38,093 nt of DNA from assembly GCA_021818105.1 (NCBI GenBank), contig JAKAFB010000012.1, forward strand, positions 25,165 to 63,257. Direction: 5' to 3'. Within the stretch, counting starts at the first letter, position 1, and the number at the start of each line of letters is the position of its first letter. Made by a program: the position numbers and the translations under genes. The notes beneath the pieces were generated by a model, which worked only from the letters and a program-made list of their open reading frames with translations, was not told where the DNA came from and searched no databases. The DNA is from Acidobacteriota bacterium. GTDB taxonomy: Bacteria > Acidobacteriota > Terriglobia > Terriglobales > Acidobacteriaceae. Of this stretch, positions 7,801 to 22,589 are shown piece by piece.

Positions 7801-8691
7801 ACAGTCTCGCTTGCGCAGTTGTTGGGTCTCTCGCCGCAGTATGCGGGCACGAATTCGACAACGCCAGGCCAGGCGACCTGGGGAAAGTCATTCTCAAATT
7901 TTGCCAACTTCCAGATTCAGGCGCGCGCATTCCACGGACTCGAACTGCTTGCCGCGTATTCGATCAGGAAGACTCTTACTAACACTTCGAGCACAGATAT
8001 TCACGTCTTTGGAAGCGCTGCCGGCGCACTTCAGAATCCTCATAATTTGATGGAAGCCTACTCTGTTGCAACGTACGAGCTGCCACAAACCCTCAAGCTT
8101 AACTACTCGTACGATCTTCCCGTCGGTCGCGGCAGGATGTTTCTCTCTGCGCCGCAGGGGGTGGGGCAGAAAGTGCTTGATGCTGTAGCTGGGGGCTGGG
8201 CAATCGCGGGAATCTCCATTTGGAGTCCACATGGAACTCCGGTCCAGGTTCCGACCGTTGACGGCGGGAATCAGGTTCCGGGGGCAGCGCTGCGCTGGTC
8301 CTTTGCGAATCAAAGCTTCCGCAAATCTGGATCCAGCTACGAGAATGCGCTTGTAATGAATGGTGCTTGGGTTAATCAGAGTGGCGGAAGCGGTATCCTG
8401 AACCCGCAGGCATTCCTGCGCACTCCGGACTTCTCGCTTGCCAACTCGCCGGTGTTCTTCGCCAACCTGCGGAATCCCGGCATGTTCTCGACCGACGCGA
8501 GTATCCTGAAGCAGTTCTACCTGAGTGAAAACAAAGCCCGCTACATTGAGACGAGGCTTGAGGCGTTGAACATCTTCAACCATCCCAATTTCGGAAATAT
8601 CATCGCAGACCCGGATTCTCCGGTTTTCGGTGGCATTAATGGGAAAACCGGCCAGCGTGTCATGCAGGTCGGCGTACGCTTCTTCTTCTAG
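4864..8691 (+). CDS. TonB-dependent receptor, Oar-like, with N-terminal carboxypeptidase-regulatory-like domain
   Basis: A complete 1275-residue outer-membrane receptor. Residues 1-36 are a signal peptide (hydrophobic ALALAIAIAMF, then RVNA before the mature end). Residues about 38-125 form a CarboxypepD_reg-like beta-sandwich (LSGLIADPSGAVIPGAEIKA, YTAVSNGSGIYVLTELLPG). A plug domain follows at about 125-260 and the rest is a large beta-barrel ending in FFF, typical for BAM-dependent insertion. The length and domain order match acidobacterial Oar-like receptors that import glycans or other large substrates. The start is supported by GGGAGG seven bases upstream. It stands in its own transcription unit between the TPR/ASPIC pair and the alpha-galactosidase operon, so the glycoside processed by that operon is a reasonable but unproven substrate. 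A stem-loop follows the stop. Confidence 0.93.
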   Translation: MQHNARRGAIPLSLLKVPALALAIAIAMFSPRVNAQSTNAQLSGLIADPSGAVIPGAEIKAVNTATNVPYTAVSNGSGIYVLTELLPGPYVVSASSPGFGSVKHSGLILSTGDHLSLNFTLKPGGVEESVTVTAAQTLISSDEANSSSVLDNKMITELPQLNRNALDLTATAPAIQGSGPLVDQIGTLGNAAYLIANTGNSYSVAGGQVNGTNISVDGNPVQEAEFNATNRSIPTPDSIGEFRVESGVLTADKGRYAGGVISMQTQSGTDQYHGRAFFYFRNEVMNSNDWTDNSLGNPRQAFDQKNYGAAVGGPVRIPHLYNGKSHTFFYAAWEGERFSQGQEVVSSIPTLLNQQGDFSQTVINYNNGAPVYANIYDPFYGTYDSNPADCTGPLAEQYSTQGNCWVRPQFPGNKIPATYGSGVSGQSRLFSHYLALWPSPNHQPAANSDFLNNRYDHVNITRPTDKYFLRIDEAYGNNQHLSASFSRSMLTDNIPAPFLHAAESVTTDADWNGGLLYTLAPNAKTVVNARLGFGVTNLYSNGVSGNGSAPDPNINTSQWPFDPMIESNNEKTTNEIPPVINMGSAAGSYTHVGGAEYDTFITQQLNGTVSVQRLIGRHAVKIGYEQYFNRFTEQGGDKTGVAWVNPGGGSNQYWNQNDGLTGSQLAELMMGSSNYFNWGNWDITPYGWNQAAYVMDDWKVNSKLTVQIGLRWDHDGARQGRHVPGSLVYDMNAKNVLSPNGNWSWGQVTAAVPGLGTLPTPAWLSQGATGRVALIGTPEYPQKNLYTTNMVNLQPRLGINWAIDSKTVVHLSAGTVDQGLNGLATDWLSFYYNSNTFNQVSTVDGQHWISEFGGDHGLPAFPALPGGGNLGWVPPITNNNDYWYASYGAAGNFDQTGTTMGHFDTPTNYMWGFSVQRQLSDNWAVSADYLGVKGVHLITNVWGWSLNNVPLQYYSLGTHLYDQVPNPFYGQSLNFSLEPTVSLAQLLGLSPQYAGTNSTTPGQATWGKSFSNFANFQIQARAFHGLELLAAYSIRKTLTNTSSTDIHVFGSAAGALQNPHNLMEAYSVATYELPQTLKLNYSYDLPVGRGRMFLSAPQGVGQKVLDAVAGGWAIAGISIWSPHGTPVQVPTVDGGNQVPGAALRWSFANQSFRKSGSSYENALVMNGAWVNQSGGSGILNPQAFLRTPDFSLANSPVFFANLRNPGMFSTDASILKQFYLSENKARYIETRLEALNIFNHPNFGNIIADPDSPVFGGINGKTGQRVMQVGVRFFF

Positions 8692-8800: not shown

Positions 8801-11026
8801 ATGGCCAAGAAAATGTTGCGCATGATTCGATTCACCACCGCGCCTTTCATCGTGCCTGTATTCTTAGTAGCAGGTCTTTCAGGCCGATATTGCGCATCGG
8901 CTACGCCGGAGGCTTCGGGAGCTTTGTCTATCTCCACCTCCGACATCCGCATTGCTGTTGATTCTTCAGCAGCACAGCCGCGACTGGCCTCGATCAATGC
9001 TCCTTCCGGGCTCTCCCTTCAAAATCATGCTGATGAGCTGCTCCCTGAGTTTGTAGTCATGGATGGCACTCAATTACCGCTTCAGTGGGAGCATAGGAAG
9101 GCTCTGGACACTCTTAATGGGCGCCAAATCGTGATTGTCTACGAGTCGCAGAATCCACATTTGCGTTTGTCGTGGAAATGGCAAGTGCGTGCTGGATTCG
9201 GCCCCGTTGAACACAGTATCACCGTAGAGAATCTGGGAGAACGCGAAGTATGGCTGCCCATGATTGACTCGATGCGCCTGGGCTTCGCGGTTTCAGCCTC
9301 AACCCAGATGCGCAACTTTTTTGTTGAGAAGGGAGATGGCGCGCCTTCTCCGCAAGGCATACATCTTGAAGATATAGCGGATGGATACCGCTGGACTGGT
9401 TTCTCCTCCACTTATGCGCACACTCACGAAGGCGAGCCTCGGGAGATCATTCCTGCGGAGTTTGTCTTCGATGCAGACCAGCCTCAGGTGGGTTGGTATG
9501 CGGGCATAGAATTTAGCGGTAGGACTCGTATCTCTCTAGAGCGCGCCGGTGATGATCTGCAATCGGTGCTTGGTTTGAATCCAGATCCCGGCCCGTTTCG
9601 CACGCGCCTTGTTCCCGGCGGCAGTTTTGAATCGCCCACGGTGTTTCTGGGTGCGTTCAGCGGTGGCCCTGATGGTGCGGGCAATCAACTTCGCCCGTGG
9701 GTGCGAACAGTGCTGGGAAATCCCCTAACGTGGAAGAACCTTCATTACCCCTATGTGGTGAATAACAGTTGGGGCAGTGGCATGTCCGTGGATGAGCCGC
9801 TTGCACTGCGCATGATTGCTGAATCCAAGGAACTGGGTGTGGAGATGTTCCACATCGATGCAGGCTGGTTCCGTGGCGTGGGTGACTGGTACCCCGATCC
9901 GAAGAAGTTCCCCCACGGTCTTGCATACATTGCTGATCAGGCGCACAAGAATGGTTTGCGTTTTGGTATCTGGGTTGACTGGACGCAGGCTGGGTTAGGT
10001 GCCAATGCGGGTGCACTCAACGTGCACGATCCCAAGGTTGCCAACTGGATGGTCAGTGACGTGCCTCCAGACTGGAAGCCCGAGGAGTTCAAAGGGCAGA
10101 CTATCGATCTTGGGGTGCCAGCCGCCCATGATTACCTCCGCAATGAGGTGAACCGCATCGTCGGCGACTATCACCTTGATATGCTCGAGCACGACGGCTA
10201 TCTCGTTGCGCAAGGTTGCGTGCGCGACGATCATCCGCATGCGCCGCCAAACCGGAGCTCGATGAAGATTACGCACGAGGGTATCTCCGACTTTGTGCTG
10301 GCTTCGAACTCCACTGACGTGAGTTATCACGCTGTGCGTTCTTATTACGATATCTATGCATCTACGCGCGCCAAGCATCCCGGCCTCATCTTTGAAATCT
10401 GCAATGACGGCGGGCGCATGGTGGACTTTGGTTCTGCCGCGCACGGCGACTATTTCTCCATCACCGATACCTATGACCCGCTGTCGAATCGTCGCGCTTT
10501 CTATGATGCCAGCTACGTCCTTCCAGCGGCGATGCTCGAGAGCTATGTGGAGAAGTGGCCCACACCCCGCCCGGAAAATTTCCTCTATATGTTGCGAAGC
10601 GGCATGATGGGTTGGGTCACTTTGATGCTGGACACATCCGTATGGACTGCTGAGCAGCATGAAGCGGCTCAGCGTGCCATTGCCCTCTACAAACAGAGCG
10701 TGAGGCCGCTCATTCGTGATGCCAGCCTGTACCACATATCGTTGCGTCCCGACGGCATACATTGGGATGGCATGGAGTACTGGGACGCAGTGCGACGGCA
10801 GGGGGTGGTATTTGCATTTCGAGGCAGCATTTCTGATGAATCGGAGCATCGGTTTGCGCTGGCCGGGCTAGACCCCATGCGAAATTACAGGCTCCATTTT
10901 CAAGACGGAAGCAGTGCGGACCGAACGGTCTCTGGCCGGGACTTGATGCATGGCCTCGAAATTCATCTTTCTCACCCGCTCAGTTCTGAACTTGTTTTCC
11001 TCTCTGACGCAGGGATCAAACGCTGA
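8801..11026 (+). CDS. Secreted alpha-galactosidase-like glycoside hydrolase (clan GH-D, GH36-like)
   Basis: A 741-residue predicted exported enzyme expected to hydrolyse terminal alpha-galactosyl (or related) residues with retention. Residues 1-35 contain a signal sequence (FIVPVFLVAGLSG); starts at 8801, 8813 or 8822 are all possible, since no strong ribosome-binding site decides. Residues about 40-300 form the N-terminal beta-supersandwich. The (beta/alpha)8 barrel carries the clan D signatures NNSWGSGM, HIDAGWFRGVGDWYPDPKKF (around residue 351) and RFGIWVDWTQAG. The Asp in MLEHDGYL (about 464) is the likely nucleophile, and the Asp in FSITDTYD (about 555) the likely acid/base. The nucleophile region differs from the classical KxDxN of MelA-type enzymes, so specificity could be another alpha-glycoside. 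It is first in a co-directional run with a sugar dehydrogenase 26 bp downstream. Confidence 0.85.
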   Translation: MAKKMLRMIRFTTAPFIVPVFLVAGLSGRYCASATPEASGALSISTSDIRIAVDSSAAQPRLASINAPSGLSLQNHADELLPEFVVMDGTQLPLQWEHRKALDTLNGRQIVIVYESQNPHLRLSWKWQVRAGFGPVEHSITVENLGEREVWLPMIDSMRLGFAVSASTQMRNFFVEKGDGAPSPQGIHLEDIADGYRWTGFSSTYAHTHEGEPREIIPAEFVFDADQPQVGWYAGIEFSGRTRISLERAGDDLQSVLGLNPDPGPFRTRLVPGGSFESPTVFLGAFSGGPDGAGNQLRPWVRTVLGNPLTWKNLHYPYVVNNSWGSGMSVDEPLALRMIAESKELGVEMFHIDAGWFRGVGDWYPDPKKFPHGLAYIADQAHKNGLRFGIWVDWTQAGLGANAGALNVHDPKVANWMVSDVPPDWKPEEFKGQTIDLGVPAAHDYLRNEVNRIVGDYHLDMLEHDGYLVAQGCVRDDHPHAPPNRSSMKITHEGISDFVLASNSTDVSYHAVRSYYDIYASTRAKHPGLIFEICNDGGRMVDFGSAAHGDYFSITDTYDPLSNRRAFYDASYVLPAAMLESYVEKWPTPRPENFLYMLRSGMMGWVTLMLDTSVWTAEQHEAAQRAIALYKQSVRPLIRDASLYHISLRPDGIHWDGMEYWDAVRRQGVVFAFRGSISDESEHRFALAGLDPMRNYRLHFQDGSSADRTVSGRDLMHGLEIHLSHPLSSELVFLSDAGIKR

Positions 11027-11052
11027 CCAGAATGGTTGCCGAGGGAAAACCG

Positions 11053-11829
11053 ATGAACAATGAATTCAAAGGCCGGGTTGCAGTTGTTACGGGTGCTGCG
11101 CAAGGCATAGGTCTTGCCATCGCCTGTGAACTCCGTGCGCGGGGAGCCCGTGTGCTGCTGGTTGACCGCAATGCCTCTGGACTGGCAAGAGTTACGCAAA
11201 CGCTGGACAACAAGGATCATTCAGCTATGCGGGCGTTTGTGGCTGACCTCGCGGATCCTGATGCTATCGAGGAGCTGGCCAGCCAGATTTCCAAGGCAGA
11301 ATCTCGAATTGATGTGCTGGTCAACAATGCGGGAATTGAAATCGACCTTCCCTTCGAGAAAGTTGACGTCGAAATTTTCAACCAGGTGATTGCGGTCAAC
11401 CTTCGCGCCCCACTGCTGATGACGCAGGCTCTTTCTCAACTTTTTCCTTCATCGGGCGGTGCCATTATCAATATCAGTTCTATACATGCTAATCATGCCT
11501 TCCCGAATGCAATTCCTTATGCCTGCTCCAAGGCGGGGCTCTTGGCGTTAACGCGTAATCTGGCGCTTGAGCTGGCCCCTCGGAACATCCGGGTGAATGC
11601 AATATGTCCGGGGTACATTGACACCCCCATGTGGGAAGAATGGCTTCGCAGCGCGAGCGATCCCGCAGCCTTGGCAGAGGAGACCGAAAAGCTGCACCCC
11701 TTGGGCCGCCGGGGACTGCCACGCGATGTTGCAATGGCGGTGGCTTATCTTGCCGGGCCGCAGGCGCCCTGGATTACCGGCACGAGCCTCGTTGTGGATG
11801 GCGGTCTGACAGTCCGTGCGCATCCCTGA
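11053..11829 (+). CDS. Short-chain dehydrogenase/reductase, probable sugar dehydrogenase
   Basis: A 258-residue classical SDR that oxidises a hydroxyl group with NAD(P). The Rossmann nucleotide motif TGAAQGIG is near the N-terminus, NNAG follows in the middle, and the catalytic Ser-Tyr-Lys set is Ser143 (NISSIHA), Tyr156 and Lys160 (YACSK). The stretch NAICPGYIDTPM and the final WITGTSLVVDGGL are typical of the family. The start at 11053 is chosen because GAGGGA sits six bases upstream; an in-frame codon at 11032 lacks this. It begins 26 bp after the alpha-galactosidase stop, so the two are almost certainly co-transcribed. Context suggests a galactose or similar aldose dehydrogenase giving a lactone, but sequence alone cannot fix the substrate. 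Confidence 0.9.
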   Translation: MNNEFKGRVAVVTGAAQGIGLAIACELRARGARVLLVDRNASGLARVTQTLDNKDHSAMRAFVADLADPDAIEELASQISKAESRIDVLVNNAGIEIDLPFEKVDVEIFNQVIAVNLRAPLLMTQALSQLFPSSGGAIINISSIHANHAFPNAIPYACSKAGLLALTRNLALELAPRNIRVNAICPGYIDTPMWEEWLRSASDPAALAEETEKLHPLGRRGLPRDVAMAVAYLAGPQAPWITGTSLVVDGGLTVRAHP

Positions 11830-11879
11830 ACGGATTGTATTGAAAACAGGAATGTTGGTGGAGCTCTAAAGGGGTTGAT

Positions 11880-13898
11880 ATGACGACGATTGGTGGTGAT
11901 TTTTCAGTGTTCGAAGGCGGCAATGATGGCCTAAGATGTCTTCACCATTTCAAGTCTTTCCCAACCGCCATGAAACGCCAGAAGAACGCCCTGAGCGAAG
12001 CGCTCAAACAGGAATTCAAAAAAGACCTCGAGTTATTTGAGTACTTTCTTGTGCTCGTGAATAATTCCAGCCCGATCCGAAACGTAGAGCTGATGTGGGC
12101 TGACGATCTCGAGCTGTTCGATGCAGCACAGCGCAGGCGTTTCAATACAGGTGAAGCGCTGATCCAGTTGCAGGCTCATGGGGCGGTCTCCCCCGAGAGG
12201 AGTTCGCCTAGCCCCAGCACGCATTTCTGTGACCTGGTGCATGGCTTGGGCACGTACGAGGAGCAGACGTGCTCTCGCAGCGACAAGCCCGCAAAGGAGC
12301 GTTGTCGTGCCACGGGGTGTAGCCACGTCTACCCGTGTCACGTAGGGCTAACAGACATCGCGGTTCCCGTAATCTGTGAGGGTCGTTATCTGGGCACATT
12401 GTTTAGCGGACAGGTGCTGACTGATCCGCCTACGCCCGAGGGATTTGCCCGTGTACGAGAGGCGCTGGTGGGCCAATCGCACATTGACTTCGAACAGCTC
12501 GAAGAGGCTTACTATCGAGTTCCCGTAGTCACTGCTGCGCAACTGGCTGAAATGGTACGCATGATGGAGGTATTCGCGCGCTACCTGGCAAACACATGGA
12601 AGCGCCTTGAGATCACCAGTGAATTTCACCAAATTCATGAGAAGGAAGTTGCCCTCGATCGCCGTGAACTGGCTGAGCGGTTGCTCTCATCCCACGTTGG
12701 TACGGGGACGCGCGACCTTCCCTCGCTGGCGCGCAGTGTAGGCCTTGATCGCTTCCCTGACAGGATTCTGCTGCTTCGCCTCCAGAGCTCTGCTCGCCAG
12801 AGCGCGCGTGCCGTGGACAATGATGGCGCGCCTGACTCAATCAGAGAGATTGGCAGCCAGCTAATTATAGGCAGGGTTCTACATCTCATTGAAGATCGGT
12901 GCAGAATCTGGCCGAACACGTTGGCTACGCCCATTGCCCCCGGCGAGTTGTGCATCTTTACCTGCCAGGACGCGTGTGATCTGGAGCAGGAGAAGCAGCT
13001 TCTGGATGAACTGGCCCAGACTTTGCTCCGGATTGCCCGCTCGAACGGATTGACGTCCGCTCGAATCGGAGTAAGCCGCAAGTACCCGCAGGCGACAGAG
13101 TTGTTGGGTGCCTATCATGAAGCTGCCTCTGCACTTGCATCGGCGCAATCCACTGTCAATTGGTTTGAGGATCTACCCGAGCGTCGTCAGGAGCCCACGC
13201 AGGCTCTTGCGAAGTTGCTGAAGGCGCTGCAGGAGGCAGATGCGGCGGCGCTCGCGACTTCCACCCGCGAGTTCCTGACGGGTGCGGCCCCGACGGGTGG
13301 TGACTTGCAATCTGTCCAGCAAGGGCGTGGCCTTCTTACCTGGGCTTGCGAACACCTATCGCGTGAAATCATCAGTCTTGGTGTCAACACGGAGTCTGTT
13401 GATGCAGCCCGCAAAAAAGCTGTGCAGATCATCATGGGGGCTCCCGGGTCCTTTGCGATGGTTGAGGCCTTTCGCAGCTTTGTGGAAGAGTTGCGGCTTC
13501 GTGTTCTGCATCTCTTCAGCCGTCGTGAGGCAAAGATTGTGAGCGAAACGCAGCGACTGATTCGTCTGCATGGCCCGGAAAAAGTGACAGTCCATAGCCT
13601 CGCACGGGCACTGAAGCTCTCGGCCGGCCACCTTGGCCGCGTTTACAGCCGCACTGCCGGCCACACGCTCGAGGAGTACCTGATCCGGCAAAAGCTGGAG
13701 ATGAGTAAGAGACTCCTGCTGGATCCACGCCTCCAGGTGGCTGAGGTGGCCGATCGCTGCGGTTTCTGCAATCCGGCGTACTTTGCATCAGTTTTCAAGA
13801 AGTACATGCATTGCACGCCTCGCGCCTACGCCAAGGAGCCGCAACGCTGGGATGCGCGCGAGGTTGCATTCTCGGAGCTGACGCGTCTGGCGCTTTAA
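11880..13898 (+). CDS. PocR-domain AraC-family transcriptional regulator
   Basis: A 672-residue regulator. Residues about 45-245 form a PocR-type ligand-sensing domain: it holds a set of cysteines (FCDLVHG near residue 117, then TCSRS, ERCRATGC and YPCHVGL) followed by TDIAVPVICEGRYLGTLFSGQ, the family signature. The middle, about 270-540, is an AraC-associated linker region without a domain I can name. Residues about 558-660 form the double helix-turn-helix of AraC/XylS proteins (VHSLARALKLSAGHLGRVY, then VAEVADRCGFCNPAYFASVF). PocR domains sense small metabolites such as 1,2-propanediol or sugars. Lying between two dehydrogenase genes of the same run, it probably controls this sugar locus. 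AAAGGGG upstream of the ATG supports the start. Confidence 0.88.
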   Translation: MTTIGGDFSVFEGGNDGLRCLHHFKSFPTAMKRQKNALSEALKQEFKKDLELFEYFLVLVNNSSPIRNVELMWADDLELFDAAQRRRFNTGEALIQLQAHGAVSPERSSPSPSTHFCDLVHGLGTYEEQTCSRSDKPAKERCRATGCSHVYPCHVGLTDIAVPVICEGRYLGTLFSGQVLTDPPTPEGFARVREALVGQSHIDFEQLEEAYYRVPVVTAAQLAEMVRMMEVFARYLANTWKRLEITSEFHQIHEKEVALDRRELAERLLSSHVGTGTRDLPSLARSVGLDRFPDRILLLRLQSSARQSARAVDNDGAPDSIREIGSQLIIGRVLHLIEDRCRIWPNTLATPIAPGELCIFTCQDACDLEQEKQLLDELAQTLLRIARSNGLTSARIGVSRKYPQATELLGAYHEAASALASAQSTVNWFEDLPERRQEPTQALAKLLKALQEADAAALATSTREFLTGAAPTGGDLQSVQQGRGLLTWACEHLSREIISLGVNTESVDAARKKAVQIIMGAPGSFAMVEAFRSFVEELRLRVLHLFSRREAKIVSETQRLIRLHGPEKVTVHSLARALKLSAGHLGRVYSRTAGHTLEEYLIRQKLEMSKRLLLDPRLQVAEVADRCGFCNPAYFASVFKKYMHCTPRAYAKEPQRWDAREVAFSELTRLAL

Positions 13899-13925
13899 CG
13901 TGACATGCAAAGTCTTGGGAGAATT

Positions 13926-14915
13926 ATGCGCGCTTTGGTCTACACCGCACCGCACCGGGTTGAGCTTCGCGAAGTGGAGCGCCCCGTAACTGGCGGCGGA
14001 GATGTCGAAATCGCTGTGGAAGCAGCGGGTATCTGTGGGTCTGACATGTCCGGCTTTCTCGGTCATAGCCGCCGCCGCATTCCACCCTTGGTTCTCGGTC
14101 ACGAACTCGTCGGCCGCCTTCGTGATGGAAAACGCGTCGTCGTTAATCCACTCATCAGTTGTGGACGGTGTACAGCCTGCCTGAGTGGGGCGCAAAACCT
14201 TTGCTCCAGTTGGCGTCTTCTGGGCTTGGACCGCATTCAGGGCTGCTTTGCTGAATCTGTTGCCCTGCCTGAATCGCAAGTCTATGAAATCCCCGATGAT
14301 CTTCCTGACCATAGCGCGGTCATGACCGAACCGCTGGCAAACATCGTCCACCTGTTCCGTCTTGCCTCGCCCAGACCTTTCTTCCGCATGGGAATTGTAG
14401 GCGGGGGAACCATGGGATCGTTGGCGCTTCTCACTGCGCTTCATCTGGGAGTGCGCGACATTCTGGTGCAAGACGTAAGCGATGTGCGCCTTGATACCGC
14501 GCGCCGAATGGGCGCAACGCTTACCGCGAATGCTGCCACAGAAGAAGGTCGCTCTGAGGCCCACCGCTTTGCGGGGCACGGTCTAGACTTCGTGCTGGAT
14601 GCATCCGGCACCGGTCCAGCACGTCAAGCTGCCCTTGACCTCTGTCGCCCGGGTGGCGTCGTGCTTCTTTTGGGCATGAGCAGCGAACGCAGTGAAGTTG
14701 ATTTTGTCACCAGCATTCGCAAGGAGCACCGCGTCCTCATGTCATTCGCCTATACCCCCGTAGACTTTGAGCGCTCTTTGGCGCTGCTGAAGGCTGGGGA
14801 AATAGATCTCACTCCGTGGACTATCGAGATGCCGCTCGAGCACGGCCAACAGGCATTCGAGCGTATGACCTCAGCTCCGGGCAACACCCTGAAGATGGTG
14901 CTCCGTGTTCATTAA
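13926..14915 (+). CDS. Zinc-dependent medium-chain dehydrogenase (sorbitol/threonine dehydrogenase type)
   Basis: A 329-residue member of the MDR alcohol dehydrogenase superfamily, oxidising a polyol or sugar with NAD(P). The catalytic zinc ligands are visible as Cys37 (GICGSD) and His59-Glu60 (GHE). The structural-zinc loop has four cysteines (SCGRCTACLSGAQNLC). The nucleotide-binding fold has GIVGGGTMG. It is slightly shorter than the usual 340-350 residues. The start at 13926 follows GGGAGA with good spacing; a frame opening at 13905 also exists but lacks this. It starts 27 bp after the regulator and its last 11 bases overlap the next gene, so it belongs to the same operon. Substrate probably a sugar or sugar alcohol released upstream; not provable from sequence. 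Confidence 0.88.
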   Translation: MRALVYTAPHRVELREVERPVTGGGDVEIAVEAAGICGSDMSGFLGHSRRRIPPLVLGHELVGRLRDGKRVVVNPLISCGRCTACLSGAQNLCSSWRLLGLDRIQGCFAESVALPESQVYEIPDDLPDHSAVMTEPLANIVHLFRLASPRPFFRMGIVGGGTMGSLALLTALHLGVRDILVQDVSDVRLDTARRMGATLTANAATEEGRSEAHRFAGHGLDFVLDASGTGPARQAALDLCRPGGVVLLLGMSSERSEVDFVTSIRKEHRVLMSFAYTPVDFERSLALLKAGEIDLTPWTIEMPLEHGQQAFERMTSAPGNTLKMVLRVH

Positions 14916-16170
14916 TTCCATAGGCCCCCGTCGGCTACGAAAGATTTTCTTCGCATACGTGCGCTTCGTGTGCGCATTGGCCTGCCTTGAAGTGAGTGCT
15001 CTGGCCATGACCCAAAAGCCGCTTCCCTCGCTCCACGATGGCACCGTTGTTTCGGGTCCGGGAGAGTTTCGCCATGACGGCGAGTTATTGGTGCAGGGCA
15101 AGGTCACTCTGAGCAACCTGACGCTCCATCTGCACGGTCCCATACGCCTTGCCGCGGGAGCAACGTTGGAGCTTACAGACGTCCATCTGTTTGTCTATGA
15201 TCCGGCAGGCGCCTCAAACGGAACGAGCGGACTGCAATGCGATGGTCCGGTCCAGGTTGTCATTCGAAATTCTACGATGGCACCGGTTGGCGATGCCCAT
15301 CCGATGTGGCTCCTAAAGGGGAAGATTGAGTTGGATGGGTTTACGACGACCAATTCGGAATTTCATTTCGATCACGTTCAGGCCCGCCTTAACAACCTGA
15401 AGATCTTTGAACTGGAAATTTCTCATGAGAGCCAAGTCACAGCGCAAAATCTCGACCTCGTATTCCTCTCCACCCATACCGGTGATGACGACGAGTTGAA
15501 CTTTGAGAACATACCGGCTGATCGACCTTTCACGCGGACACTGCAACTTGGATCAGGCGCACATGCCCAGCTCACGGCTACACGGCTGCAGTTCTTCCTT
15601 CTCTACATGCATGGAAGATCGAGAGCCGACCTTGCCCACATGGATCGTGTGCAACTGGCACTGTCACCCCGCTGTGATGGAACTTTACGCTTGCCGAAGG
15701 GGCGGCTCGGATCGGCGGAGCGGCCTGCAGTCTTCCCCCGGCCAGGTTCCTCCACCTGTCCCTTCCGCCTGACATTGAACGACGTCAACGTGGACACCTG
15801 GGATGTGTACGCAGGCGACAACGCGAATCTTGTAATTGAGGATTCGCAGATCGATGAGCTTGTCGCAACAGAGAACGCTAGAATCGCAGTTCGCAATTCA
15901 ATCGTCTATGCAGATTGGCTGAGCATAGGAAATCATGCGTCTGTCAGTATTGCGTCATCCACCGTCGGCGCTTTGCGGCTTGCTTCTCAAAGGCCTGATC
16001 TTGCGACAAGCCAGATAAGGGTCTCTGACGATGGCCATGCGGATTTCTCCGAAGTGCGATTTGACTGCGGGATTGTGGCCGATGGGGATGCCTCAGTCAA
16101 CATCAGCCACTCTGTCCATCCTCCCGCGTATGTGCACAGAGGCGGTCATGCAATCGTCAAGGAAAAATGA
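14905..16170 (+). CDS. Exported protein of unknown function, probably right-handed beta-helix-like
   Basis: A 421-residue protein of no family I can name. The proposed GTG start at 14905 overlaps the preceding dehydrogenase by 11 bases and gives a basic N-terminus (GPRRLRK) plus a hydrophobic stretch (IFFAYVRFVCALACLEVSALA), a plausible signal peptide; a start at the next ATG would lose it. The mature part is built of short beta strands with repeating turns such as VTLSNLTLHLHGPIRLAAGA, LELTDVHLFV and IEDSQIDELVATENARIAV, rich in N, D, S and small hydrophobics. That is the composition of right-handed parallel beta-helices (pectate-lyase-like or carbohydrate-binding). No catalytic residues stand out. 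As the last gene of the alpha-galactosidase run it may bind, cleave or modify the same polysaccharide; this is inference. Confidence 0.75.
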   Translation: MFINSIGPRRLRKIFFAYVRFVCALACLEVSALAMTQKPLPSLHDGTVVSGPGEFRHDGELLVQGKVTLSNLTLHLHGPIRLAAGATLELTDVHLFVYDPAGASNGTSGLQCDGPVQVVIRNSTMAPVGDAHPMWLLKGKIELDGFTTTNSEFHFDHVQARLNNLKIFELEISHESQVTAQNLDLVFLSTHTGDDDELNFENIPADRPFTRTLQLGSGAHAQLTATRLQFFLLYMHGRSRADLAHMDRVQLALSPRCDGTLRLPKGRLGSAERPAVFPRPGSSTCPFRLTLNDVNVDTWDVYAGDNANLVIEDSQIDELVATENARIAVRNSIVYADWLSIGNHASVSIASSTVGALRLASQRPDLATSQIRVSDDGHADFSEVRFDCGIVADGDASVNISHSVHPPAYVHRGGHAIVKEK

Positions 16171-16223
16171 GACTTTGTAATGGACGAGTGAGTGCCGCCT
16201 CCAGTGATGGCTCTCCGAGCAGG

Positions 16224-17360
16224 TCACTTCTGCACAAAGCGGTACCGAGCAATCGTCTCCTCATTCAGCGTCACGCCTAGTCCCGGTGCCTGCGGGACGC
16301 GTACGCAGCCGTCTTCCTCCACAGGAAAATGCTCGCGCGTCGTTTCCCAGCGCAAAGGCGAGTGGCTTAGTGAGAACTCCAGGGGTTCTGTATTGGGCTG
16401 CGTCGCAAGAAAGTGCAGATTCGCTGCAATCTCGATGTTGGTCTTGTAGCCGTGTGTGATCACACGCTTACCCCGCTTGTAGGCGGCCTCTGCAATTTGG
16501 AGAATTCCTGTAAAGCCTCCTACCTGCGATATGTCTGGTTGGCAAATACTTGCGCCACCCCGGTCCATCATTTCAACGAATTCGCGCACATGCGTGAGTC
16601 CCAAATCACCGACGCCTATTGGCAAGCCATGCCGGCTCATTTCCAGATGTCCATCCACATCGTCGAGTGGCAGTGGAGCTTCCAGGAACCAGATGCCCAC
16701 TTCCCGGAAGTAGGGAATCAGCCGCGCTCCTTCTTCGGCTGTGCGATACGAAAGCGCTGCGTCAATAATGAGGTGTGCTTCATCGCCAGCCTGCTTGCGC
16801 GCCGCTGTTAGCAGGCTGCCGGTCAGAGCAAGATCGTCGAGCCACCAGGGATCTGCTGCAAACTTGAAGTTACGCAGATTCTTTGCCTGTCCTTCGGCAA
16901 TCTGGTCTCGCACACCCTCCGGAGTGCGTGCCATCGGATAAATAGTTCCGTATGCTGGCAGCCGGTCCCGCTGCGCACCGCCCAGAAGCGCATGCACCGG
17001 CTTATTCTCAATCTTCCCTCGGAGATCCCAAAGCGCAAGGTCGATGCCGCCAATCGCGTGCATGGCCAATCCGCGTCGTCCGATGTAGTCGGTAGCCTCA
17101 TACATGCGGTGCCACAATTCAGCCGGATCGCTTGGATCGGCACCCACCAACACTGCTGAAAGCGCGCGTGCGTGATTGTGGGCAGAAGGACCGCGCACGA
17201 TCGCTTGAACGGCGGGTGCCATGGATTCAGTTTCTCCAATGCCCGTCAATCCGCTGTCGGTGTGCACCACCAGCACGCAATCGTCATAGGAGCCATCAAA
17301 CAGCTCGATCAATGGGTCTTCCGCACGCAGATGAATCGCCTCGATGCCGGTGATCTTCAT
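16224..17360 (-). CDS. Mandelate racemase/muconate lactonizing enzyme family protein, probable sugar-acid dehydratase
   Basis: A 378-residue enolase-superfamily enzyme. It has the N-terminal capping domain (MKITGIEAIHLR, DSGLTGIGETE) and a (beta/alpha)7-beta barrel. Expected metal ligands are Asp200 (LIIDAALS), Glu227 (FLEAPL) and Asp252 (GVGDLG). A His303/Asp275 dyad (ITHGYKT, CQPDIS) matches the mandelate racemase subgroup. Only one lysine of the usual KxK is present (NFKF, Lys166). Members of this subgroup dehydrate sugar acids such as galactonate, gluconate or fuconate. An in-frame GTG at 17375 is an alternative start; the ATG at 17360 fits the family's usual N-terminus. It is convergent with the alpha-galactosidase run and divergent from the transporter pair, so it likely performs the aldonate dehydration step of the same pathway. 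Confidence 0.85.
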   Translation of the reverse strand: MKITGIEAIHLRAEDPLIELFDGSYDDCVLVVHTDSGLTGIGETESMAPAVQAIVRGPSAHNHARALSAVLVGADPSDPAELWHRMYEATDYIGRRGLAMHAIGGIDLALWDLRGKIENKPVHALLGGAQRDRLPAYGTIYPMARTPEGVRDQIAEGQAKNLRNFKFAADPWWLDDLALTGSLLTAARKQAGDEAHLIIDAALSYRTAEEGARLIPYFREVGIWFLEAPLPLDDVDGHLEMSRHGLPIGVGDLGLTHVREFVEMMDRGGASICQPDISQVGGFTGILQIAEAAYKRGKRVITHGYKTNIEIAANLHFLATQPNTEPLEFSLSHSPLRWETTREHFPVEEDGCVRVPQAPGLGVTLNEETIARYRFVQK

Positions 17361-17547
17361 AGGTGTCCATTCCACTCCGATGGGCAGATGATAAAACTCA
17401 TTGCCGACCCTTCGAAATTGGAGAACGTCAGAACGAAAGTATGAACCGGGAAACAGGATTCAGCCAGCAGCATTCCCATTGCAAATGTCCTGCTAGTCCC
17501 GATATCCTCACCGCGTGGATACAGGTGTCTACGAGGACTCGGATGCG

Positions 17548-18015
17548 GTGAGCAATCCCGTGATCGGGCAAAGAGGTTTTGCAAAAATTCCCCGCTGGCT
17601 TTTCTGGTCCCTGCTGACAATCGTGTTGTGGGGCACATGGGGGCTCGTCTCCAAAGTGGCCTCGGCCGGCATGGACGCGTACGTCAATCAACTGCTCTAC
17701 ACAACCGGTCTAGTTCCGCTCATGATCTTTGTTGCCTGGACGGTGCGCAGACAGCACTCGAGCGAGCCTCGAAGAGTGCGCGCTCAGGGTATCTTCTGGG
17801 CATTTCTAACGGGCATTCTCGGCGGAGTGGGCAATATCTTCTTCTTCGAGGCTCTGGTTAAAGGAGGCAAGGCTTCTGTTGTAGCTCCAGTTACTGCGCT
17901 CTTTCCAATGATCACAGTTCTGCTCGCACTCGTGTTTCTGAAAGAGCGTCTGGGCCGTCTCCAATGGAGCGGTCTGGCACTTGCCTTCGTCGCAATCTAT
18001 CTCTTGAGCAAATGA
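17548..18015 (+). CDS. Half-size EamA/DMT transporter, first subunit of a pair
   Basis: A 155-residue integral membrane protein with a single EamA domain of five predicted helices (WLFWSLLTIVLWGTWGLVS, LVPLMIFVAWTV, IFWAFLTGILGGVGNIFFF, VVAPVTALFPMITVLLALVF, GLALAFVAIYLLS). Full EamA transporters carry two such domains in one chain, so this is a half transporter that must dimerise. The GTG at 17548 is preferred because GAGGA lies about ten bases upstream; another in-frame GTG at 17515 would add eleven residues. The second half follows 22 bp later with a different sequence, so a heterodimer is likely. The gene diverges from the sugar-acid dehydratase, suggesting movement of a sugar or sugar acid, though DMT specificity cannot be read from sequence. 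Confidence 0.85.
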   Translation: MSNPVIGQRGFAKIPRWLFWSLLTIVLWGTWGLVSKVASAGMDAYVNQLLYTTGLVPLMIFVAWTVRRQHSSEPRRVRAQGIFWAFLTGILGGVGNIFFFEALVKGGKASVVAPVTALFPMITVLLALVFLKERLGRLQWSGLALAFVAIYLLSK

Positions 18016-18037
18016 GCATTCCCAACGGAGGAGCACG

Positions 18038-18475
18038 ATGCATCTATGGTTAAGCTTTGCAGTTCTGGCGCTCGTGCTCTGGGGGATTACGGGTGTTACG
18101 CAAAAGCTCTCGACCAATTGCATCTCCAGCGAACGTTCGTTCCTCTGGTTCTCCTGGGCCATGATCGCGCTATCCGGTGCGGTGCTTTTTGTGGCGCACC
18201 CTCATTGGGGACTTGGCAGGCTGGTCGTACTCTGTTCCATTGCCGGCGGGGCTTTGAACGGCCTTGGCGCATGGACCAGTTTTCGCGCACTCGAGTCCGG
18301 AGGTAAGGCTTCCATCGTCATTTCTCTTGTTTCGCTCTATCCGCTGCTGACCGTCGCCCTTGCGGTTCTGCTGTTACGCGAGCGTCTCAACCTTGCCCAG
18401 ACATTCGGCGCCATCACAGCAATCGCCGCTGCTATTCTGCTTTCAATGGAAGCGCAGCAGCAACCCGAAGGCTGA
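18038..18475 (+). CDS. Half-size EamA/DMT transporter, second subunit of a pair
   Basis: A 145-residue membrane protein with one EamA domain of about five helices (LWLSFAVLALVLWGITGV, FSWAMIALSGAVLFV, LVVLCSIAGGALNGLG, IVISLVSLYPLLTVALAVLL, FGAITAIAAAILLS). The segment ESGGKASIVISLVSLYPLLT is clearly equivalent to VKGGKASVVAPVTALFPMIT in the upstream gene, so the two are diverged duplicates. GGAGGA lies six bases before the ATG. The spacing of 22 bp indicates co-transcription and probable heterodimer formation, as in paired SMR exporters. Its stop codon lies only 5 bp from the end of the convergent epimerase-like gene, leaving no room for a separate terminator. Confidence 0.85.
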   Translation: MHLWLSFAVLALVLWGITGVTQKLSTNCISSERSFLWFSWAMIALSGAVLFVAHPHWGLGRLVVLCSIAGGALNGLGAWTSFRALESGGKASIVISLVSLYPLLTVALAVLLLRERLNLAQTFGAITAIAAAILLSMEAQQQPEG

Positions 18476-18480
18476 TTCGT

Positions 18481-19476
18481 TCAGGCTTCATCGCCGGGAA
18501 TAATCGTTCCGTCCGCATTGATGCCTCCGATGGAATGCAGTCCCTGTTGCACAGAAAATGTGACCTCGGTTTCAAGACTTTGCCCAGCGGGCAAAGTGCG
18601 GGCCTGCCCATTGGCGATCAATTTCTGCATTTGGAACGGATATCCGGTTGCCGGTTCCAGAACGGCCACATTCAGTCCGCGCCACCCCCCGTGTGTTGCA
18701 AACAGCCAGCAACTCGAAAACACCTTGGGATCAAAGCGCAGCGCCGCCGCCAGCTTCTTTTCGCGATCTGTCACACCGCACCAGCCATTCGCGTACTCAG
18801 TGCCATAAAAGAAGTGCAATGCTTGCGACGAAGCATCAGGAACCTGGCGCAGATCCAGCAGATGATCGCCCAGCGATGCATACGGCCAGGAGAAGACAGG
18901 CGGGGCATTCTCGAGGGTTCCTGGAAAGTCGATCTCCCTTACCACTTTCATCGGCGGGAAATCGATTCGGTGCGCGGCCGTTACGGCGAATGCCGGGTGC
19001 AGCTTCCAGAGGAATGGCAAAGACTGAGAGCTCATGTTGGTCAGTTTGTATCGAACCTTGAGCAGATGGCTTTCATCCTGCAGAGTGATCTCCTTCTCTG
19101 CGATGAATTGTGTAATCGGAGTGACAAACTGCAGCTTCAGCGCATTTGTCCCGCACTGCATCGAATGCCACTTTCCCGTCCACAGCTCGCCGTGGTCCGG
19201 CAGGTTGAGACCCATCAAACTGCAGGCTTCGTCGTTGGGAAACAACTCATCCCATCCCCCGCTCCAGTTGTCGTCGTAGCTGGTGTGCAGCGAATGCACT
19301 GCAGGCGGTACCGCAGGGCTTTGCCACAGCAAGTCAGCCTGCAGAGGTTTGTACGTGATCTGCCAGATCTTGCCACCGGCCTCCGGAAGCACAACGACGC
19401 GGAGAGACCGGTTTTCTAGGATCATCATCTGCAATTTCTGTATACATGAGCCAGAGTGTGCACTGAAGGCATCCAT
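18481..19476 (-). CDS. Aldose 1-epimerase-like (galactose mutarotase superfamily) protein
   Basis: A 331-residue protein of the mutarotase-like beta-supersandwich fold. The opening ENRSLRVVVLPEAGGKIWQI is the typical first hairpin of aldose-1-epimerase relatives. WDELFPNDE and LPDHGELWTGKWH sit where the family has its substrate-binding histidine region, and KLHPAFAV carries a second conserved histidine. It lacks the exact catalytic set of GalM, so it belongs to a divergent subfamily that may act on another sugar or only bind one. AGGAAG precedes the ATG at 19476 with good spacing. If active it would interconvert alpha and beta anomers of the sugar released by the nearby alpha-galactosidase. 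It is convergent with the half-transporter pair. Confidence 0.75.
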   Translation of the reverse strand: MDAFSAHSGSCIQKLQMMILENRSLRVVVLPEAGGKIWQITYKPLQADLLWQSPAVPPAVHSLHTSYDDNWSGGWDELFPNDEACSLMGLNLPDHGELWTGKWHSMQCGTNALKLQFVTPITQFIAEKEITLQDESHLLKVRYKLTNMSSQSLPFLWKLHPAFAVTAAHRIDFPPMKVVREIDFPGTLENAPPVFSWPYASLGDHLLDLRQVPDASSQALHFFYGTEYANGWCGVTDREKKLAAALRFDPKVFSSCWLFATHGGWRGLNVAVLEPATGYPFQMQKLIANGQARTLPAGQSLETEVTFSVQQGLHSIGGINADGTIIPGDEA

Positions 19477-19706: not shown

Positions 19707-22064
19707 TCAATGTGCTGTTAGAGCCTCATGTACATAAGCCGACTTTAGTGGTAAACGGCGAAGGATCTTCCCAGTTGCATCGTGGAGTGCTGCCGCTATC
19801 GCCGGCGCGGCCAGGGCATTGGCAGCCTCTGAACCGCCGCCGTAACTGCCAACCCTAGGATTGTTGATCAATTCAACTTTGATTTCCGGGATGTCCGCCA
19901 TCGTCAGGACTGGGTAGCTATTCCAGTCGTCCTGCATGACTCCGCTTTCGTCCGTCATCACCTCTTCGAGCAGCGCAATGCTTATTCCCATCATCGCGCC
20001 ACCTTCCACCTGCCGTTTCAACTGTGTGGGGTTGATGACGACGCCCGGATCGACCGCAAGCGTACACTTTTCCACCTTAATCGCGCCTGTGGCGGGAGTT
20101 ACGGCTATATGGCAGGCGCACGCCCAATAGGTTCCATCGCGAAGCATGAGCGAAACACCGCGTCCGCGCACGGCTTCTGTTCCCTCGGCCGCAGCATGCG
20201 GACTCGGCGACGGGCGCGTATCCCAGCCCGATGCATCGCGCACCTTCTTCAGCACACCGATGGCGCGCTCTTCCTTTAGGTTGTTGATGCGGAATTGAAT
20301 TGCATCCACACCGGCAAGTACAGCCGCTTCATTAATAGCTAACTCACGCGGAAAGTTCTGCTGGAACTGCGCCGGTGTGCGCATGCTGTGATCACGAAGT
20401 CCTACTGCAATGGGCGATACTTTCTGGCCCACCTGGAATGTGCCATGCCCGCGCTCAATCACATTGGGAACCCGTGCATAAATCCAGTCATCCGAGATAT
20501 TATTCACCGTTGAAGTGACGAAGTCACCGTGGACATCCGGGGCAGGCATTGTCGGCAGCCCCGCCAGCACCGCACCAACAGGTCTGTCGTCCTGCATGGG
20601 TGGCATATAGTGGTCGATCTGGTAAGCGGCAAGCATGCCCTGATCATCCACCGCGAGTTCCACATCGGAGAAGGCCGCAGGCGATTGCGTCGACCACTGC
20701 ATGTCATCTGCGCGCATCCACTGCACGCGCACCGGCTTGCCCACGGCCTGCGAAAGAATTACAGCCTCGTCTTCCGCTCCCGCGTTTCCACCGTTCGACC
20801 TTCCGTAGTGTCCGGGTCCCGCATAGATATGTACGATCACCTTGTCGATCGTCGTGCCGAGCATCTTTGCAATCTCGCCGCGCAGTTCCTGTGGATTCTG
20901 GTTATGCGTGTGGACGTGCACCATGCCGTCCGGCTTCACATCGCCCACGGCCATCGTTGGGCCAATCGGCGCGTGTTTCATGTACGATATCTGATATGTA
21001 GCGGTGAACTTCTTGCTGGCCGACGCTAGCACCGCAGCGGCATCGCCCTTGGTCGCGCGGCTCTTCATAACCGGCGTTGAATCCCAGTCAGATTCGTTCC
21101 TTAGATGGTCATATAGCTTTGCGCTGCCCGGCAGTCCCTTCCAGTCCGTCCACTTTGTGCTTTCTGCAACCTGCTGTGCGGCCTGGATCGCTTCCCACTC
21201 CGTCGGCGCTACCACGCCCACAAGATTACCCTTTACGATGACTTGCGTATGTGGATACTTCGTCTTGTCGAGTTTTCCGACTGACACCAGCGTCGAACCC
21301 AGTGTCTTCGGATGTACCACTCGTCCGTGCAGCATGCCCGGCAGGCGCACGTCTGTTGCCCAAAGCACCTTAGCAGTTACTTTCTCTTGAATTGCGGAGC
21401 TTGGATAAGACTTGCCAATAACCGTGTATTCGCTCACGGGTTTCATTGGAGGATTGCCTTCGACGCTTAGCCCGACGATACTCGTCAGTTCTCCCCTAAC
21501 GGGAATGGTGAGGCTGAACTGTTGCCCTTTGATCAGGTCGCCGTAGGAGATGGTCTTGCCACCGCCGGAGACTACGCCGTCCTTCACCGTCAGCTTGCTT
21601 CTATCCACACCCATCTTCTTCGACGCAATATCAAGCAGTGCCTGATATGTGTACGCAGCCACCTTGCGAAGATTCGGCGTGCCGTCGTTCAGGAAGCCGA
21701 ATGAGCCGCCTCCGTCGGGAGTCTGGTCGGTCGATCCGGTGACAACCGTAGTAATGGCCTCGAATGGCATCGACAGCTCTTCGGCCACAATCTGCCGGTA
21801 CGCAGTGTAGACCGATCCTTGGCCAAAGTCATTTTTGCCGGTGCGGATCGTTACTGTGTTATCGGGATGAATCTCGAGCCAGGAACTGGCGATGGATGGG
21901 TCAAGTGAATTTTTCGCAACTACTGCTTTCGGTGTTTCGCCCCTGAGAGGCGACGCGCCAACAATGCTGAAGCCCACAGCGAGCACGCCCCCGGTCTTCA
22001 CAAACTGGCGGCGAGTAAGTGTCGCCCCAAATACATCGATGGACTTGCTGCTCTTGGTCGCCAT
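19707..22064 (-). CDS. Molybdenum hydroxylase large subunit, isoquinoline 1-oxidoreductase beta-like, Tat-exported
   Basis: A 785-residue molybdopterin-binding catalytic subunit of the xanthine oxidase family, IorB-like. A Tat signal is present (LTRRQFVKTGG with Arg18-Arg19, then the hydrophobic VLAVGFSIVGASP), so the folded cofactor-loaded complex acts in the periplasm. Family motifs: GKNDFGQGSVYTAYRQIVAEE, HIYAGPGHYGRSNGG and, near the C-terminus, GSYGGGSEAANALAAPA with the glutamate expected as catalytic base. These enzymes hydroxylate aldehydes or N-heterocycles with water as oxygen donor. It starts 3 bp after the iron-sulfur subunit, in one operon. Neither an FAD subunit nor a cytochrome c gene lies next to it, as in two-subunit IorAB enzymes whose electrons go to another acceptor. 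The substrate is unknown. Confidence 0.92.
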   Translation of the reverse strand: MATKSSKSIDVFGATLTRRQFVKTGGVLAVGFSIVGASPLRGETPKAVVAKNSLDPSIASSWLEIHPDNTVTIRTGKNDFGQGSVYTAYRQIVAEELSMPFEAITTVVTGSTDQTPDGGGSFGFLNDGTPNLRKVAAYTYQALLDIASKKMGVDRSKLTVKDGVVSGGGKTISYGDLIKGQQFSLTIPVRGELTSIVGLSVEGNPPMKPVSEYTVIGKSYPSSAIQEKVTAKVLWATDVRLPGMLHGRVVHPKTLGSTLVSVGKLDKTKYPHTQVIVKGNLVGVVAPTEWEAIQAAQQVAESTKWTDWKGLPGSAKLYDHLRNESDWDSTPVMKSRATKGDAAAVLASASKKFTATYQISYMKHAPIGPTMAVGDVKPDGMVHVHTHNQNPQELRGEIAKMLGTTIDKVIVHIYAGPGHYGRSNGGNAGAEDEAVILSQAVGKPVRVQWMRADDMQWSTQSPAAFSDVELAVDDQGMLAAYQIDHYMPPMQDDRPVGAVLAGLPTMPAPDVHGDFVTSTVNNISDDWIYARVPNVIERGHGTFQVGQKVSPIAVGLRDHSMRTPAQFQQNFPRELAINEAAVLAGVDAIQFRINNLKEERAIGVLKKVRDASGWDTRPSPSPHAAAEGTEAVRGRGVSLMLRDGTYWACACHIAVTPATGAIKVEKCTLAVDPGVVINPTQLKRQVEGGAMMGISIALLEEVMTDESGVMQDDWNSYPVLTMADIPEIKVELINNPRVGSYGGGSEAANALAAPAIAAALHDATGKILRRLPLKSAYVHEALTAH

Positions 22065-22067
22065 TGC

Positions 22068-22589
22068 TTACCTCCCCTGCGCCATAATTGCGGCTGCACG
22101 CTGCACAGCTTCGATGATCGCGGTATAGGTGCCGCAGCGGCACAGATTCGGTGACACTCCTGACGTGGTATAAGCCGCTTTGATCTGCTCCACTGTCGGA
22201 TGCGGATTACTTTCCAGGAGTTCTGTCGCCTTGATCATCATTCCGTTCTGGCAGAAACCACACTGAGGAGTCTGTTCCTCGATCCAGGCTTGCTGGACAG
22301 GGTGGAGTGCGTGTTTCTCATCTTCTGCCGTAATACCCTTCTGCTTTGCCCACCGGGCGGGAAGGCCCTCGAGCGTCGTAATTTCCTGGCCTGCCACGTC
22401 TGCCACGGTTGTGACGCAGGAGCGCACTTCCTTGCCTGCGACAAGCACGGAGCAGGCGCCGCATTGGGCAAGCCCACAACCAAACTGCGGCCCTGTGAGC
22501 TCAAGATCGTTACGTAGAACGTAGAGCAGCGGTGTGTCACCCGCAACGTCCACTTCCTGCCGGACCCCATTCACGATAAGTGTGGACAT
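22068..22589 (-). CDS. (2Fe-2S)-binding subunit of the molybdenum hydroxylase, IorA-like
   Basis: A 173-residue electron-transfer subunit. The N-terminal plant-ferredoxin-like domain has the first cluster cysteines (FGCGLAQCGACSVL, plus RSCVTTV). The C-terminal helical domain has the second cluster (QCGFCQNGMM and LCRCGTY). The size and the two clusters match small subunits of two- or three-subunit molybdenum hydroxylases. The ATG at 22589 is chosen because GGAGGGA lies six bases upstream; in-frame codons slightly earlier (TTG 22604, ATG 22595) overlap that site. It lies directly upstream of the catalytic subunit, separated by 3 bp. It has no signal peptide of its own and probably leaves the cell as a hitch-hiker with the Tat-tagged large subunit. 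Confidence 0.93.
   Translation of the reverse strand: MSTLIVNGVRQEVDVAGDTPLLYVLRNDLELTGPQFGCGLAQCGACSVLVAGKEVRSCVTTVADVAGQEITTLEGLPARWAKQKGITAEDEKHALHPVQQAWIEEQTPQCGFCQNGMMIKATELLESNPHPTVEQIKAAYTTSGVSPNLCRCGTYTAIIEAVQRAAAIMAQGR

Follow-up and report, generated by a model that had tools for sequence, protein, structure and literature searches.

Which sugar is released, and by which route is it oxidized, at a locus where genes for a glycosidase, two dehydrogenases and a sugar-acid dehydratase lie together behind an outer-membrane receptor? This question is raised by a 38,093-nucleotide stretch of DNA (hereafter the window) from an Acidobacteriota bacterium of the family Acidobacteriaceae (contig JAKAFB010000012.1). 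A first, sequence-only reading saw in positions 8801–19476 a locus for the use of alpha-galactosides, in which the sugar would be oxidized and dehydrated by De Ley–Doudoroff-like chemistry instead of entering the Leloir route. The gene families that it named are present at about the positions that it gave them, as supported by Pfam matches and, for a beta-helix protein, by AlphaFold2 and VIA-align. Based on the catalytic residues and gene order described here, we propose, with the case standing about evenly, that the locus encodes a non-phosphorylative oxidation route for a sugar derived from an imported glycoside.

The conserved unit runs from about position 1727, the start of a gene for a tetratricopeptide repeat (TPR) protein, to 19476, the end of a gene for a DUF4432 protein, and holds about twelve genes. 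We place the borders here because the gene set recurs in two arrangements across the loci fetched; the end proposed earlier is thus kept and the start moved upstream. Relatives of the window's GH36-type glycosidase were collected by a scan of public genomes that began from a GH36 alignment and sought only two short peptide patterns, and which therefore favors close relatives. It yielded 51 loci, 46 of them in Acidobacteriota. Neighboring genes were counted by tblastn with the window's proteins, excluding weak Oar and ASPIC matches of 24–28% (among them Oar matches of 24–26% in L021 and L029); L032 and L043 were taken to be the same records, with the same genes, as stretches L005 and L006. By this count, a gene for a short-chain dehydrogenase/reductase (SDR) lies directly 3′ of the GH36 gene in 25 of the 51 loci, and a PocR-type regulator is present in 23, in each of them directly after the SDR. 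An Oar-like receptor gene (54–93% identity) precedes GH36 in 21 loci, and an ASPIC protein is encoded upstream in 16.

Two arrangements account for this recurrence. In that of the window, the order TPR, ASPIC, Oar, GH36, SDR and PocR is followed by a medium-chain dehydrogenase/reductase (MDR), a dehydratase, a pair of EamA proteins and DUF4432. In the other, seen once left flanks were fetched, dehydratase, MDR, EamA pair, DUF4432 and beta-helix genes lie upstream of the same TPR-to-PocR series; in L042 and L047, by way of exception, the dehydratase lies on the right side. Clustering of open reading frames (ORFs) gave eleven families common to these neighborhoods; the window has all of them, and no further family reaches more than four loci. 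That the co-location exceeds chance is borne out by this ordered recurrence in many Acidobacteriota. It is therefore very unlikely that these are unrelated carbohydrate genes that merely share a neighborhood, a view that would fit the 26 of 51 loci in which GH36 relatives lack the SDR and the beta-helix gene standing alone in one genome (G012), but not the same set, the shared order and the sharp borders.

The unit is accessory. Among 59 genomes of the window's genus that were examined, 14 carry the GH36 gene, its own genome included, the others at 64–83% identity. On a GH36 tree, the label for the cluster, borne by 24 of 48 rows, is scattered over 11 changes (shuffled mean 16.2, with 5 of 500 shuffles as low), and the outgroup branch is very long; the tree does not support a claim that the cluster arose once. 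Among the relatives, L023 (9905–13257) is a GH36-MDR gene pair that lacks SDR and PocR, its MDR sharing 77% identity with that of the window. MGH1-like glycoside hydrolases adjoin GH36 relatives, and a GH127 gene lies near L033 (L021:4540–9878, L045:12240–14822, L033:8335–12675). One carrier of the locus is a named isolate, Acidicapsa dinghuensis 4GSKX (L025); a literature search on this species found no paper.

The glycosidase (8801–11026, + strand) belongs to GH36 by both sequence and fold. It matches the melibiase model PF02065 at 95.7 bits (cut-off 27), and its AlphaFold2 model (pLDDT 89.7) matches 2xn0 in Foldseek (E 1.6e-42, TM 0.74), although fold alignments to GH36 alpha-galactosidases show only 15–18% identity. 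It appears to be exported, judging, as for the other proteins here, from an N-terminal segment read by eye. In GH36 alpha-galactosidases, according to the available part of PMC7688924, the −1 subsite is made up of Trp336, Asp366, Trp411, Arg443, Lys476 and Trp537, with Asp478 as nucleophile and Asp540 as acid/base. We mapped these residues through HMMER alignments and our own count along the AgaB row, placing the Lys476–Asp478 stretch via 2xn0 and 3mi6. Like AgaA/AgaB, LaMel36A and AgaSK, the locus enzyme has the fold, both catalytic aspartates (Asp465 and Asp556) and the equivalents of Asp366 and Trp411 (Asp353 and Trp391). Unlike them, it has Ala354 for Asp367, Glu463-His464 for Lys476-Trp477, Lys431 for Arg443 and Ser553 for Trp537, and Trp336 aligns with Ser323, which lies beside an invariant Trp324. 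The pocket motifs accordingly read D353-A354-G-W and E463-H464-D465, the latter holding the nucleophile, so that DD has become DA and K-W-D has become E-H-D relative to the solved enzymes.

These substitutions are a property of the whole group. We aligned the 49 ORFs, out of 51 in the family and with the window's own included, that exceed 70% of its length (L018 and L044 yielded no GH36 ORF, and that of L052 is split in two). Ala354, Glu463, His464 and the nucleophile Asp465 occur in 49 of 49 and Lys431 in 43 of 49; at the acid/base position, 46 of 48 rows have Asp and the other two Glu. The pair Asp366-Asp367 and Lys476, which would mark an alpha-galactosidase −1 subsite, are thus retained at Asp366 only. 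The sequence is most simply read as that of an enzyme plausibly capable of catalysis but altered in its sugar pocket, and the sugar that it releases is probably not ordinary galactose. Of the earlier assignment as a secreted clan GH-D alpha-galactosidase, the family stands and the specificity for alpha-galactosides is weakened.

What might such a pocket accept? Tentatively, the sugar could be a galacto-like pentose, for example beta-L-arabinopyranose, or a 6-deoxy sugar, entering a Weimberg-like or diketo-acid route; as a choice of substrate this is compatible with the oxidation route that we propose. The loss of the second pocket aspartate, seen by alignment as Asp367-to-Ala, would mirror a missing C6 hydroxyl, and the sole NCBIfam match of the glycosidase is to a beta-L-arabinopyranosidase model. 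That match reaches 30.5 bits against a cut-off of 1100, however, and every score that favors a pentose lies far under its cut-off. A GH127 beta-L-arabinofuranosidase gene near the sister cluster L033 points the same way, but at one locus only, and the change of Lys476 to Glu is left unexplained. That change would find a role if Glu463 touched the basic group of an amino or N-acetylated sugar, a substrate that we nonetheless consider quite improbable. After the cluster, L053 has a PIG-L deacetylase-like gene (12909–13649); after the second-type dehydratase, L042 has a GlmS-like SIS-domain gene (16302–17381). Each was seen at one locus and neither is in the window, and the solved GH36-like galactosaminidase 9awt is a distant relative (TM 0.55). 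A sulfosugar was set aside, since in our judgement a pocket glutamate is ill suited to a sulfonate.

Ordinary alpha-galactosides can be handled elsewhere in the same genome. A second GH36 on contig C123 (L087:1450–3684; 387.2 bits) is canonical, with the motifs MDDGW, LKWD and SDNTD and a signal-like N-terminus, and the genome has one galactokinase-type gene (PF10509, 73.8 bits) and one GalT-type gene (PF01087, 211.2 bits). For free galactose, the idea of an oxidative route in place of the Leloir route therefore fails.

The enzymes downstream of the glycosidase agree better with the earlier reading, whose SDR, MDR and dehydratase calls are confirmed by Pfam matches and retained active-site motifs. 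The SDR (11032–11829, + strand), a candidate aldose 1-dehydrogenase, carries the GxxxGIG and YxxxK motifs (as GAAQGIG and YACSK) and passes the cut-off of 215 for the 'glucose 1-dehydrogenase' subfamily NF005559, with 230.1 bits; L053 carries two further SDRs. The zinc-dependent MDR (13905–14915, + strand; PF00107/PF08240) has its zinc-ligand motifs, and its nearest models are threonine, idonate and polyol dehydrogenases; it is a candidate dehydrogenase for the secondary alcohol of a 2-keto-3-deoxy acid. The DUF4432 protein (18481–19476, − strand), the last gene of the unit, had been called mutarotase-like. A profile match to the aldose 1-epimerase 3nre (E 9.8e-6) supports this, although its PF14486 score, 31.2 bits, falls just short of the cut-off of 32.5. 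His95, His160 and Glu274, which, read by eye, may correspond to the catalytic His/His/Glu of mutarotases, are present in 16 of 16 rows, the window included.

The dehydratase (16224–17375, − strand; PF13378/PF02746) belongs to the mandelate racemase (MR)/enolase superfamily, with 3sjn as its closest solved structure (E 2e-65). Lys171, Asp205, Glu232, Asp281 and His308, which comprise metal ligands and the His-Asp dyad, are found in 12 of 12 rows, the window included. The third metal-ligand position is Asp257 in 11 of the 12; in other enzymes of the superfamily a Glu is expected there. Oxidation followed by dehydration is thus a sound part of the original proposal, resting on the SDR and on an MR-type enzyme with its dyad and ligands. 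An MR-type dehydratase lies in, or is linked to, 21 of the 25 loci with a linked SDR; the four in which it was not seen (L030, L033, L039 and L062) are represented by stretches incomplete on at least one side. Thirteen of the 21 are of the window's type (75–90% identity), seven form a second subfamily (26–29%) and one stands at 36–37%. Two of the thirteen are placed at a distance, that of L049 on another contig with matching genes and that of L027 some 25 kb off on the same contig.

The model scores of this dehydratase bear on two of the alternatives. Its best NCBIfam scores are 137.6 bits for L-talarate/galactarate, 135.4 for arabinonate and 131.1 for galactonate dehydratase; the second of these is a further point for a pentose. 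The third, close to the best, would suit a true De Ley–Doudoroff pathway, in which an alpha-galactosidase with its GH36 fold and catalytic aspartates kept would yield D-galactose, the SDR galactonate and the MR-type enzyme its dehydration product, with the 2-keto-3-deoxygalactonate kinase and 2-keto-3-deoxy-6-phosphogalactonate aldolase encoded elsewhere. The galactonate dehydratase model (PRK14017) has a cut-off of 311, which is far from reached; a distinct enzyme with such an activity would be compatible with this.

The search for a kinase and an aldolase that the sequence-only reading had called for did find the families in the genome, but not linked to the locus. On contig C130 (L080:414–8965), genes for Aldedh, FAH, KDPG/KHG aldolase, PfkB, SDR and MR proteins lie within 9 kb, with the PfkB kinase and the aldolase as neighbors. 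They have an SDR and an MR of their own, and are a separate sugar-acid catabolic locus. A scan of 30 neighbor genes at sister and paralog loci recovered an FAH-family gene and neither PfkB kinase nor KDPG aldolase. What the window shares with the De Ley–Doudoroff galactose pathway is therefore the logic of a dehydrogenase and a dehydratase, with kinase and aldolase families present in the genome; set against this are their lack of linkage, the dehydratase score, two −1 subsite residues altered in every aligned GH36, and a genome already equipped with a canonical GH36, galactokinase and GalT. We regard that pathway as improbable here.

A non-phosphorylating L-fucose route offers a better fit. 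As set out in the available part of PMC11199699, it proceeds through a mutarotase, a 1-dehydrogenase, a lactonase, a dehydratase, a 4-dehydrogenase and a hydrolase. To this L-fucose/L-rhamnose route 3 (FucM-FucA-FucB-FucC-FucF-FucG) the locus is alike in its mutarotase-like protein, its SDR, its further dehydrogenase and its enolase-type dehydratase, the last at the level of family and active-site residues, and in the FAH-family gene of three sister loci. It differs in three respects: no lactonase was recognized, an MDR stands where the known 4-dehydrogenase is an SDR, and the window has no FAH gene. Three of the 25 SDR-linked loci, namely L050, L060 and L042/L072, have an FAH-family gene adjoining the cluster; in L042/L072 it takes the form of two short ORFs in the flank. 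The best solved relative of the one in L060 is 8gsr, an L-2,4-diketo-3-deoxyrhamnonate hydrolase (E 4.7e-65), and its best NCBIfam match is 2,4-didehydro-3-deoxy-L-rhamnonate hydrolase (250.7 bits, under the cut-off of 500). We take these genes as favoring a diketo-acid route over the De Ley–Doudoroff pathway.

The computation shows the families, the catalytic residues, a conserved gene order, an EamA pair encoded by two genes and an altered GH36 pocket; from these we infer a reaction order, substrate, transport direction and localization as follows. The Oar-like receptor, with its TPR and ASPIC/UnbV partners, would bring in a glycoside. The exported, retaining GH36-type glycosidase would cut off the terminal sugar, perhaps following action of the beta-helix protein on the substrate, and the EamA half-pair may carry the sugar or a product over the inner membrane. 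There, the DUF4432 protein could equilibrate the anomers, the SDR would oxidize C1 of the sugar, and the MR-type enzyme would dehydrate the sugar acid to a 2-keto-3-deoxy acid. We propose that the MDR then oxidizes this acid at a secondary alcohol to give a diketo acid, which would be cleaved by a hydrolase of the FAH family; the gene for such an enzyme lies with the cluster in three sister loci, and the present genome has homologs at other places. Such a cleavage would require no kinase. A molecule of the pathway is expected to be sensed by the PocR-AraC regulator.

Several observations weigh against this proposal. EamA transporters are often exporters. GH36 relatives also occur without an SDR, the cluster is scattered over the GH36 tree, and the MDR is absent from its place in L031, L043 and L046. 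The MR-type enzyme lies below the NCBIfam cut-off of every named sugar-acid dehydratase. No FAH gene is in the window, the sister clusters supply the three cases above within the stretches fetched, and both FAH homologs of the window's own genome are on other contigs. With PfkB and KDPG/KHG aldolase genes in the genome, a kinase-aldolase end is also possible. No sugar lactonase was recognized by Pfam among the genes of the conserved unit. Candidates for this role are an amidohydrolase that follows DUF4432 in L016 and an 892-residue protein upstream of the window (C120:20273–22951; L084:273–2951) with weak matches, both over cut-off, to PF10282 beta-propeller and phosphoesterase models (32.5 and 32.4 bits); neither was seen to be conserved with the unit. 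The 4-dehydrogenase of route 3 is an SDR, not an MDR, in the available part of PMC11199699. Finally, the FAH family also contains dehydratases of 2-keto-3-deoxy-pentonates (PMC9795676, in the part available), so that it singles out no route, and a Weimberg-like route for a pentose is a serious rival.

The uptake genes open the unit. They encode a TPR-repeat protein with a signal-like N-terminal segment (1727–2992, + strand; Pfam TPR models), homologs of which lie upstream of ASPIC and Oar genes in sister loci, an FG-GAP/ASPIC-UnbV protein (2979–4667, + strand; PF13517, PF07593) and the Oar-like outer-membrane receptor (4864–8691, + strand; CarboxypepD_reg and OMP_b-brl_4), whose place in front of the sugar genes had been noted correctly. 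The ASPIC-UnbV ORF is listed as opening at 2817; by our own count, its likely start is the Met before a twin-arginine-like SRRSLLRS segment. By analogy, the three proteins may form an outer-membrane uptake set with a role comparable to that of SusC/SusD. Among the literature matches listed, drawn from a literature largely without subscription journals, no TPR-ASPIC-Oar uptake set is described; the one paper in which ASPIC, UnbV and TonB appear together with Acidobacteria, PMC3174227, has them in paralog tables in the part available. In the same genome, TPR, ASPIC/UnbV and Oar-like genes also occur together on contigs C86 (L085) and C60 (L086), with three consecutive ASPIC genes on C86, which suggests a recurring uptake module. 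The genome has 21 ASPIC matches, most of them without an adjoining OMP_b-brl_4 receptor.

This arrangement invites comparison with the SusC/SusD polysaccharide utilization loci (PULs) of Bacteroidota, which likewise gather an outer-membrane receptor, exported partners, an exported glycosidase and a regulator in one locus. The present locus differs in having, in place of SusD, TPR and ASPIC/UnbV proteins, whose Pfam matches are to TPR-type, FG-GAP and ASPIC models, with none to SusD, and in having a PocR-AraC regulator. A bolder reading, which we offer as doubtful but worth stating, is that this is an acidobacterial counterpart of a PUL, with TPR and ASPIC/UnbV proteins as SusD to Oar, a GH36 with a rebuilt pocket and a new non-phosphorylative SDR-MR-MDR(-FAH) pathway. 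If this were true, the GH36 clade would release a sugar that no GH36 is known to release, the MDR would make a diketo acid, and two distant MR subfamilies would share the dehydratase slot. Acidobacteriota are abundant in many soils, as the available part of PMC3174227 states. Among the literature matches listed, no receptor-glycosidase-oxidation locus of such make-up is named for the phylum. The locus presents a testable set: a single glycosidase clade whose pocket is altered, a single candidate pathway, a single regulator and, as a carrier, at least one named isolate. It also cautions that GH36 genes from soil metagenomes should not all be labeled alpha-galactosidase.

The regulator (11880–13898, + strand; 672 residues) combines a PocR sensor (PF10114), a GGDEF-like part (PF17853) and an AraC DNA-binding domain (PF12833). 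As proposed at the outset, the locus has a PocR-AraC regulator of its own, and this is the sole PF10114 match in an assembly that is 97.9% complete. Cys117, Cys131 and Cys142 are present in 23 of 23 rows, the window included. Salmonella PocR, which responds to 1,2-propanediol (PMC11264322, in the part available), has the same sensor and DNA-binding domains; the locus regulator differs in its length with the inserted GGDEF-like part, and although it matches the PF10114 domain itself, it reaches 74.6 bits with the PocR equivalog NF047788, short of the cut-off of 500.

The two EamA half-size membrane proteins (17515–18015 and 18038–18475, both + strand; PF00892) had been described as a split transporter. 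Two halves there are, but not in the sense of a broken gene: they form a conserved pair, and in all 21 loci in which the two were found adjacent, the window included, each half has a gene of its own, which rules out a frameshift or an assembly error. Translations that would suggest a fused EamA protein of 290 residues in some sister loci consist of out-of-frame sequence and the second half only. The natural reading is a two-subunit transporter.

The exported protein of 421 residues (14905–16170, + strand) has no Pfam or NCBIfam match, and neither Foldseek (at E ≤ 0.001) nor a profile search of the PDB (at E ≤ 1) returned a relative. The earlier guess of a beta-helix nevertheless stands, because its AlphaFold2 model (pLDDT 90.3) is all-beta and VIA-align returns Z scores of 11–17 among the 50 matches listed, which include pertactin, pectate lyases, AlgG and tailspikes. 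The top match, 7akv, has Z 17.0 with an rmsd of 13.8; pertactin 1dab follows with Z 14.2 (rmsd 3.3, 178 residues aligned), pectate lyase 1jrg with Z 13.3 (4.1, 187) and AlgG 4nk6 with Z 12.0 (4.3, 192). These matches reflect a shared fold only. The gene is found in four of 99 genomes, its own included, and once, in G012, outside the cluster. A copy outside the cluster, L007:13289–14530, adjoins an SRP54-family gene.

Beyond the unit, the window encodes a two-subunit molybdenum hydroxylase (19707–22604), with a MoCoBD large subunit and a 2Fe-2S small subunit and no FAD-subunit match among the neighboring genes scanned. Neither these genes nor an aldo-keto reductase gene can be counted as parts of the pathway, as no fetched stretch of the 25 SDR-linked loci contains them. 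Of these genes, one family is shared, that of the aldo-keto reductase, in L056, a locus that has no SDR.

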